NCBI GenBank assembly: GCA_903822595.1
Contig: CAIJPS010000049.1
Coordinates: 1 to 59,540, forward strand
DNA: 59,540 nt
Direction: 5' to 3'
Source: an uncultured Chlorobiaceae bacterium
Lineage (GTDB): Bacteria; Bacteroidota; Chlorobiia; Chlorobiales; Chlorobiaceae
Shown here: one piece after another, positions 10,701 through 10,886 of the stretch
How the letters are laid out: every line of letters starts with the position of its first letter
Position numbering within the stretch: position 1 is the first letter of the stretch
Made by a program: the position numbers and the translations under genes
The notes under the pieces: model-generated
The model's database searches: none
Told to the model about the DNA's origin: nothing
The model's input: the letters and a program-made list of their open reading frames with translations, nothing else

Positions 10701-10886
10701 AGCGACTGGCATGGAAACAAAGGCGCTTTTACCGATCCTCTCGGCCCTGAAACCGGTTCGAACCGTGTGATTCGTGGCGGGAGCTGGTTCAACTCTGCCG
10801 AGTTCTGTCGGTCGGCTAGTCGGTATGTCAGCTCCCCCGACTACCGGTACGACCCTGTTGGCTTCCGCCCGGTTTTCGTCCCGTAG
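7713..10886 (+). CDS. DUF4062-NACHT-FGE (SUMF1) protein, candidate DGR variable protein
   Basis: This is a 1057-residue three-part protein. Residues 15-170 resemble DUF4062, a TIR-like module ([17 protein letters not shown]). Residues 280-450 form a NACHT STAND NTPase with P-loop GDPGAGKTT at 287 and Walker B [10 protein letters not shown] near 372. A helical linker follows, and residues 790-1057 form a formylglycine-generating-enzyme/C-type-lectin fold ([63 protein letters not shown]). STAND proteins with a sensor C-terminus are typical of immunity or signalling. The last 40 residues look like a DGR variable region. Starts at 7713 or 7734 are possible; neither has a good ribosome site. Confidence 0.85.
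   Translation: [1057 protein letters not shown]
10764..10886 (+). other. candidate DGR variable region (VR) at the 3' end of the NACHT-FGE gene
   Basis: The final 40 codons follow the standard FGE-type variable region: RGGSW, then a run of aromatic, serine and aspartate codons between invariant CRSASR, SPDYRYD and GFRP. In such regions, codons that are AAC/AAT in the template become TAC, GAC, AGC, TTC and so on, and TAC, TAT, AGC, AGT and GAC occur here at the expected spacing. No template repeat or reverse transcriptase was seen in the window, so this is inference from the pattern. Confidence 0.6.

Follow-up and report, generated by a model that had tools for sequence, protein, structure and literature searches.

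Among the closest described systems are the diversity-generating retroelements (DGRs) of Thiohalocapsa PB-PSB1, which diversify NACHT/STAND and ternary conflict proteins, with action in trans deduced there from perfect matches at non-adenine sites (PMC10907252). The same paper names Chlorobi among the taxa with divergent reverse transcriptases (RTs) and treats antigen sensing by NACHT DGR targets as proposed, not proven (PMC10907252). Among green sulfur bacteria, DGRs with multiple variable repeats (VRs) are reported for Pelodictyon phaeoclathratiforme BU-1 and Chlorobium phaeobacteroides in a survey of VR counts (PMC3521204), and a study of the Treponema denticola DGR mentions HRDC repeatedly (PMC4891356). 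For the target hairpin of phage BPP-1, stem structure and not sequence is what matters (PMC3240598, PMC12875486); phage DGR hairpins have stems of 7–10 bp and 4-nt GRNA loops and lie 4–34 bp behind the VR (PMC3240598), and self-priming of the cDNA from the spacer has been described for BPP-1 (PMC12875486). Retrohoming was called incompletely understood in a 2026 paper (PMC12875486), and how DGRs outside phage BPP-1 find their targets, prime their cDNA and define their integration sites is an open question.

The window, by which we mean the whole 59,540-nucleotide stretch analysed, is contig C49 of a Chlorobiaceae genome, an assembly of 3.04 Mb in 109 contigs, all of which was searched. It carries a gene, standing alone between an ATPase gene on one side and a glycerol kinase-like gene on the other, with the following features:

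7713–10886, + strand: DGR target gene, an open reading frame (ORF) of 1057 amino acids for a DUF4062-like / NACHT / FGE-CLec protein
7758–8198, + strand: N-terminal DUF4062-like domain with a putative role as effector or in signalling (Pfam DUF4062, E=0.0092; PADLOC PDC-S60)
8553–9053, + strand: NACHT NTPase domain, residues 281–447, P-loop GDPGAGKT (Pfam PF05729, 44.8 bits, above cut-off)
10098–10874, + strand: FGE-sulfatase / C-type-lectin-fold domain, residues 796–1054, scaffold of the VR (Pfam PF03781, 142.6 bits, above cut-off)
10755–10886, + strand: DGR variable repeat, 132 bp, the last 43 amino acids and stop codon TAG; its cognate template repeat (TR), TR1, lies at C28:42424–42555

A central NACHT NTPase between an N-terminal DUF4062-like part and a C-terminal FGE domain with the VR is the layout of NACHT/STAND anti-phage receptors of the Avs/bNACHT type. 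An earlier note on this DNA had called the product a DUF4062-NACHT protein; the NACHT domain is borne out, whereas DUF4062 stays below threshold in Pfam (16.6 bits against a cut-off of 24.7), yet PADLOC PDC-S60, the model of a candidate defence protein, matches the same stretch (residues 16–162) at 5.5e-18. That note was also right about an FGE/C-lectin C-terminus with the residue pattern of DGR targets, which is present at the end of the ORF. Among proteins of known structure, the Treponema DGR variable protein 2y3c is one of the relatives of this domain (E=1.6e-16); this homology and the PF03781 match put the VR at the C-terminal end of the protein, in a C-type-lectin/FGE fold. An AlphaFold model of the domain reached a pTM of 0.74, with pLDDT below 50 over most of the VR, and its Foldseek matches were of the FGE family. 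The N-terminal end of the protein would plausibly act as effector and the C-terminal end as sensor, in what would be an immune function. The antiphage protein EruA gave a weak partial match to the P-loop region only.

This arrangement resembles that of Thiohalocapsa PB-PSB1 in having cellular DGRs, several loci per genome, and C-terminal CLec VRs on NACHT, TIR and metallophosphoesterase proteins; genus and target set differ, and the orthologue of the window gene is seen here both in cis and in trans (PMC10907252). The two green sulfur bacteria named above likewise have several VRs per DGR (PMC3521204). Treponema denticola TvpA (PDB 2y3c) shares the FGE/CLec scaffold at the E-value given above and is described as a lipoprotein, unlike the NACHT protein of the window.

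Aligned with TR1, the window VR differs at 17 of 32 template adenines and at 4 of 100 other sites (Fisher p=1.8e-9), which confirms that 10755–10886 is a DGR variable repeat, as the earlier note had proposed. Its position was given there as 10764–10886, with a template of about 120 bp; the real homology is slightly longer. Eighteen TR1 codons are variable, allowing about 10^17.7 amino-acid combinations, and none of the 18 can turn into a stop; the templates, present in three copies, are rich in AAC codons. Across species, too, variation falls mainly at the template-adenine sites, where the orthologue in genome G012 differs from the window at 20 of 32 (8 of 100 elsewhere) and that in G003 at 18 of 32 (12 of 100 elsewhere). 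An IMH/IMH* pair is absent, the ends of TR and VR being the same or nearly so through the stop codon, whereas in BPP-1 IMH and IMH* differ between TR and VR. Such a pair is a BPP-1 trait and not a universal definition of DGRs.

Neither an RT nor a TR was found on C49, in agreement with the earlier note; both lie elsewhere in the assembly, where the genome search proposed in that note recovered DGR-type RTs and the 132-bp TR1. With the last 207 bases as query, about a dozen further copies were found in the assembly, and an RVT_1 search gave five RTs, two of which (on C28 and C63, over the cut-off) adjoin repeat copies. The templates are as follows:

C28:42424–42555: TR1, overlapping the 3' end of a 383-aa RT ORF, in an intact HRDC-RT-TR cassette
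C54:377–508: TR2, beside an RT remnant with stops that is cut by the contig end, a decayed cassette
C63:6083–6214: TR3, after a 345-aa RT, a second cassette

The C28 RT is related to PDB 8ub7 (2.3e-39), and the C63 RT is 33.8% identical to Brt of phage BPP-1 (tblastn, 8e-39); the DGR-type motifs IGNLTSQ and YMDD can be read in the sequence. An HRDC-domain protein (52.1 bits) precedes the C28 RT as accessory protein of the cassette; the DGR of BPP-1 has Avd. RT matches on C83 and C24 resemble the DGR RT poorly (25–29% identity) and, by score, look like group II intron types. At least eight other genes in the genome bear VRs, among them genes for metallophosphoesterase-NACHT-FGE, membrane-NACHT-like-FGE, TIR-FGE and short FGE proteins. 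Several contigs end in or beside VR/TR cassettes, as at C35:7469–7495, where a TIR-FGE gene is cut at its VR, and C54:1–400, with TR2 and the broken RT remnant; the count of DGR parts is thus a lower bound.

The window VR lies away from the RT and TR, and in the sister genome G003 a 72%-identical orthologue stands in cis, in a complete cassette of the order NACHT-VR, HRDC, RT, TR, TM-FGE-VR. Together these suggest trans action on the window target, now or in the past. On C28, C63 and C74, sibling VRs show 0–6 non-adenine changes from their own TR, with 0–1 per 100 in three C28 siblings and two in that on C74. With its four such changes, two of them (sites 116 and 117) past the last variable adenine, the window VR was not freshly copied from the present TR1, and set against the C28 siblings its last rewriting may be older. 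This gap is an argument for regarding the VR as a fossil target, once diversified in cis or in trans and no longer rewritten. The absence of an RT near the window VR points the same way, as do the VRs on C54 and C57, which have no hairpin of the kind described below and also carry more non-adenine changes. We nevertheless consider a fossil unlikely, because the ORF, tag and hairpin of the window are intact, as are the RT and TR1, and because other VRs that lie far from their template show few or no non-adenine changes.

One such remote pair is found in genome G042, where a VR on contig C9 shows zero non-adenine changes from a TR on C33 despite the separate contigs. A second, in genome G013, is the VR on C28 at L152:7800–7931, whose body and tail are both of family C. 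It shows zero non-adenine changes from the TR of that family on C35, yet has a family-A TR only about 2.5 kb away; this looks like natural evidence that the tag family goes with the template and not with proximity. The earlier note had left the element either working in trans or lost. With an intact RT and TR1, an intact tag and hairpin, and closely matching VRs off-contig, we favour rewriting of the window VR in trans, at present or recently, over loss; the target may still be active. A repeat in G042 (L156:2716–2847, − strand; C9:91715–91846) combines a VR-type tail with a nearly unmutated, adenine-rich, template-like body (28 A), and is perhaps a target that was reset or a copy made without mutagenesis.

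Two further features lie directly downstream of the VR:

10887–10921, + strand: target address tag X, TCAGTTGGCTGCTCATGCCGGCTTTGTTTTTGAGC, 35 nt directly behind the VR
10929–10995, + strand: long conserved target-site hairpin with a stem of more than 20 bp and a loop of at least about 11 nt that contains AAGCGGAGC; distance from the VR about 42 nt

Tag X is the reverse complement, with three bulges and few mismatches, of the 34 nt (X') directly behind TR1; the match scores 30, and 0 of 1000 dinucleotide shuffles scored as high. Four families of TR tail occur in the genus (CTCAAAAGCAAAG, CTCAAAGTAAAG, CTCAAGAGTAAAG and CTCAAGGGGAAAG), and the tails of the VRs show the complementary change. When 28 TRs and 40 VRs (39 of them genuine) were compared and each VR was given a family by its repeat body only, the TR tails of that family were the single best match for 38 of the 40 VRs (38 of the 39 genuine), one exception being no VR and the other a tie. 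Body distance and tail score are correlated (r=0.59, reached in 0 of 2000 permutations, a figure that is not a clean probability because the tail families share ancestry, so that the matched changes themselves are the evidence). X extends flush to the TR end. Its last six nucleotides, TTGAGC, are the same in 26 of 26 sequences of the hairpin alignment, and a larger collection holds a few deviating cases (L179, L183 and L196). In the TR RNA, X' falls partly within the loop of a small predicted hairpin and is followed by a conserved structured spacer of about 110 nt.

In the alignment of 26 hairpin sequences, pairing holds in 98.6% of cells; at 9 of 14 pairs both partners have changed without loss of pairing, and the covariation score was reached by 0 of 500 shuffles. 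Almost every VR whose tail is intact is followed by a strong hairpin. Models R1 and R2 match 10929–10995 and find eight strong places in the genome, seven of them directly behind VRs; the eighth is an orphan hairpin at C57:10598–10664 (L172), without a VR and beside seeming transposase remnants. In 61 genomes of the genus, R2, whose training set of 20 hairpin sequences came mostly from those 61 genomes, gave 110 matches; at least 82 of these follow a VR of the same strand at a distance of 39–58 nt. The hairpin is present in 32 of 41 genomes with TR/VR repeats and in 0 of 20 without (p=1.6e-9). A generic terminator or intergenic repeat was rejected on the two grounds that seven of the eight strong places are behind VRs and that none of the 20 repeat-free genomes carries the hairpin.

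It is also conceivable that neither X/X' nor the hairpin serves in targeting: they would be hitch-hiking module ends, like terminal inverted repeats, and a transcription terminator that was duplicated together with the FGE domain. X behind an upstream VR and X' behind the TR do form an inverted repeat around the HRDC-RT-TR unit, many genes are followed by hairpins, and part of the X/X' family pattern may stem from common descent of entire modules. Against this, the conserved structured spacer that continues after X' means that X' is not an edge, a tag goes with its TR family also where VR and TR lie on separate contigs, the stem pairs co-vary, and the hairpin is almost confined to the rear of VRs and occurs in no genome without repeats. 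We therefore regard passive carriage of these elements as unlikely.

Likeness to BPP-1 extends to RT homology, the adenine mutagenesis pattern, a structured spacer RNA behind the TR and a hairpin behind the VR (PMC3240598, PMC12875486), whereas the stem is more than 20 bp here against 7–10 bp in phage and the loop about 11 nt or more against 4 nt. In BPP-1 (L174), GAAAGGC/CCCGCCAAG of the target hairpin is complementary to the spacer behind the TR, 6 of 1000 shuffles being as good; this borderline match, one of several tests, is suggestive only. Complementarity of the X/X' type was not found in BalMu-1, VHML or ACA1, and was not convincing in a second Chlorobiaceae lineage (L055; 29 of 1000 shuffles for one VR and 242 of 1000 for the other), in KSB1 (L059) or in Caldithrix (L064). 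Absent or unconvincing in seven other DGRs, X/X' is no general DGR rule. In the open-access literature, no tag or long hairpin is found in the passages searched of the Thiohalocapsa paper (PMC10907252), and those of the survey of VR counts speak neither of tags nor of a long hairpin or targets in trans (PMC3521204). The tag X/X' and the long covarying hairpin go beyond the textbook DGR.

We consider it highly probable that the window protein is a STAND-type receptor whose VR is rewritten in trans from the TR1 cassette, the target being addressed by VR/TR identity, tag X and the hairpin. The C28 cassette (HRDC protein, RT and TR1) would make an adenine-mutagenised cDNA of TR1, the RT copying the TR1 RNA and its tail with the help of the HRDC protein. 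Addressing would depend on VR-TR identity, on the complementarity of X to X' and on the hairpin some 42 nt behind the VR, and pairing and hairpin together would bring the complex to the VR. The cDNA would then replace the window VR in trans, changing 18 sensor-face codons without introducing stops. We infer both this rewriting reaction and the guidance of the complex by X/X' from genome sequence. The diversified domain would most likely sense an invader molecule, and NACHT activation would then trigger the N-terminal effector, as knowledge of the family suggests.

A bolder step would have a nick behind X leave a 3' end that primes cDNA synthesis, which may be possible since X pairs flush with the template end and ends in the almost invariant TTGAGC. 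The primer end would be ...TTTTGAGC of the target sense strand, and priming at the X end would be unlike the spacer self-priming of BPP-1. We hold priming from the 3' end after TTGAGC to be possible, though rather doubtful. The wider generalisation is tentative, a little short of an even chance: DGRs of green sulfur bacteria may use an RNA address code in which X' pairs with the sense strand of X, several orthogonal template families in one cell each rewrite their own scattered immune-receptor genes, and priming possibly occurs at an X-end nick near the hairpin.

TR1 need not be the donor in this scheme, and TR2 or a template in an assembly gap might serve instead. TR2 has the T at site 102 and the G at 117, and the genome is in 109 contigs with breaks at VRs (C35 and C54), but TR2 has eight non-adenine mismatches to the window VR against four for TR1, its tail match scores 25 against 30, and TR1 is the nearest of the 28 TRs examined in the genus; another donor is thus quite improbable. 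Ordinary divergence or gene conversion among FGE paralogues, with no DGR at all, could appeal to how abundant and fast-evolving FGE domains are in the genus, yet is already refuted by the template comparison, given the adenine specificity relative to a template beside a DGR-type RT and the many VRs, several with zero non-adenine changes, and we give it almost no credence.

The four naturally co-changed tag families in one genus lend themselves directly to a compensatory-mutation experiment and, should the code prove real, would permit programmable multi-target diversification. The hypervariable NACHT and TIR receptors of the genus, seen in cis as well as in trans, form a tractable set on which the idea of an adaptive-like bacterial NLR can be tested.

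Two NACHT-FGE genes of the window genome (G000), at C83:45273–47780 (L153) and C70:7685–10126 (L154), end in a different VR-like family (..CGTTCCAGTC), like the DGRs of L055 and KSB1. These paralogues were dropped as a non-DGR control, since ending in another VR-like family they are not a clean one. No template for this family was found in the assembly, and a second, orphaned DGR lineage may thus be present in the genome. In the window, just downstream of the target hairpin, a second small inverted repeat (11045–11071, GGGCAA..TTGCCC) contains the AGCGGAGCG motif of the hairpin loop, which occurs three times in the window against 0.46 expected.
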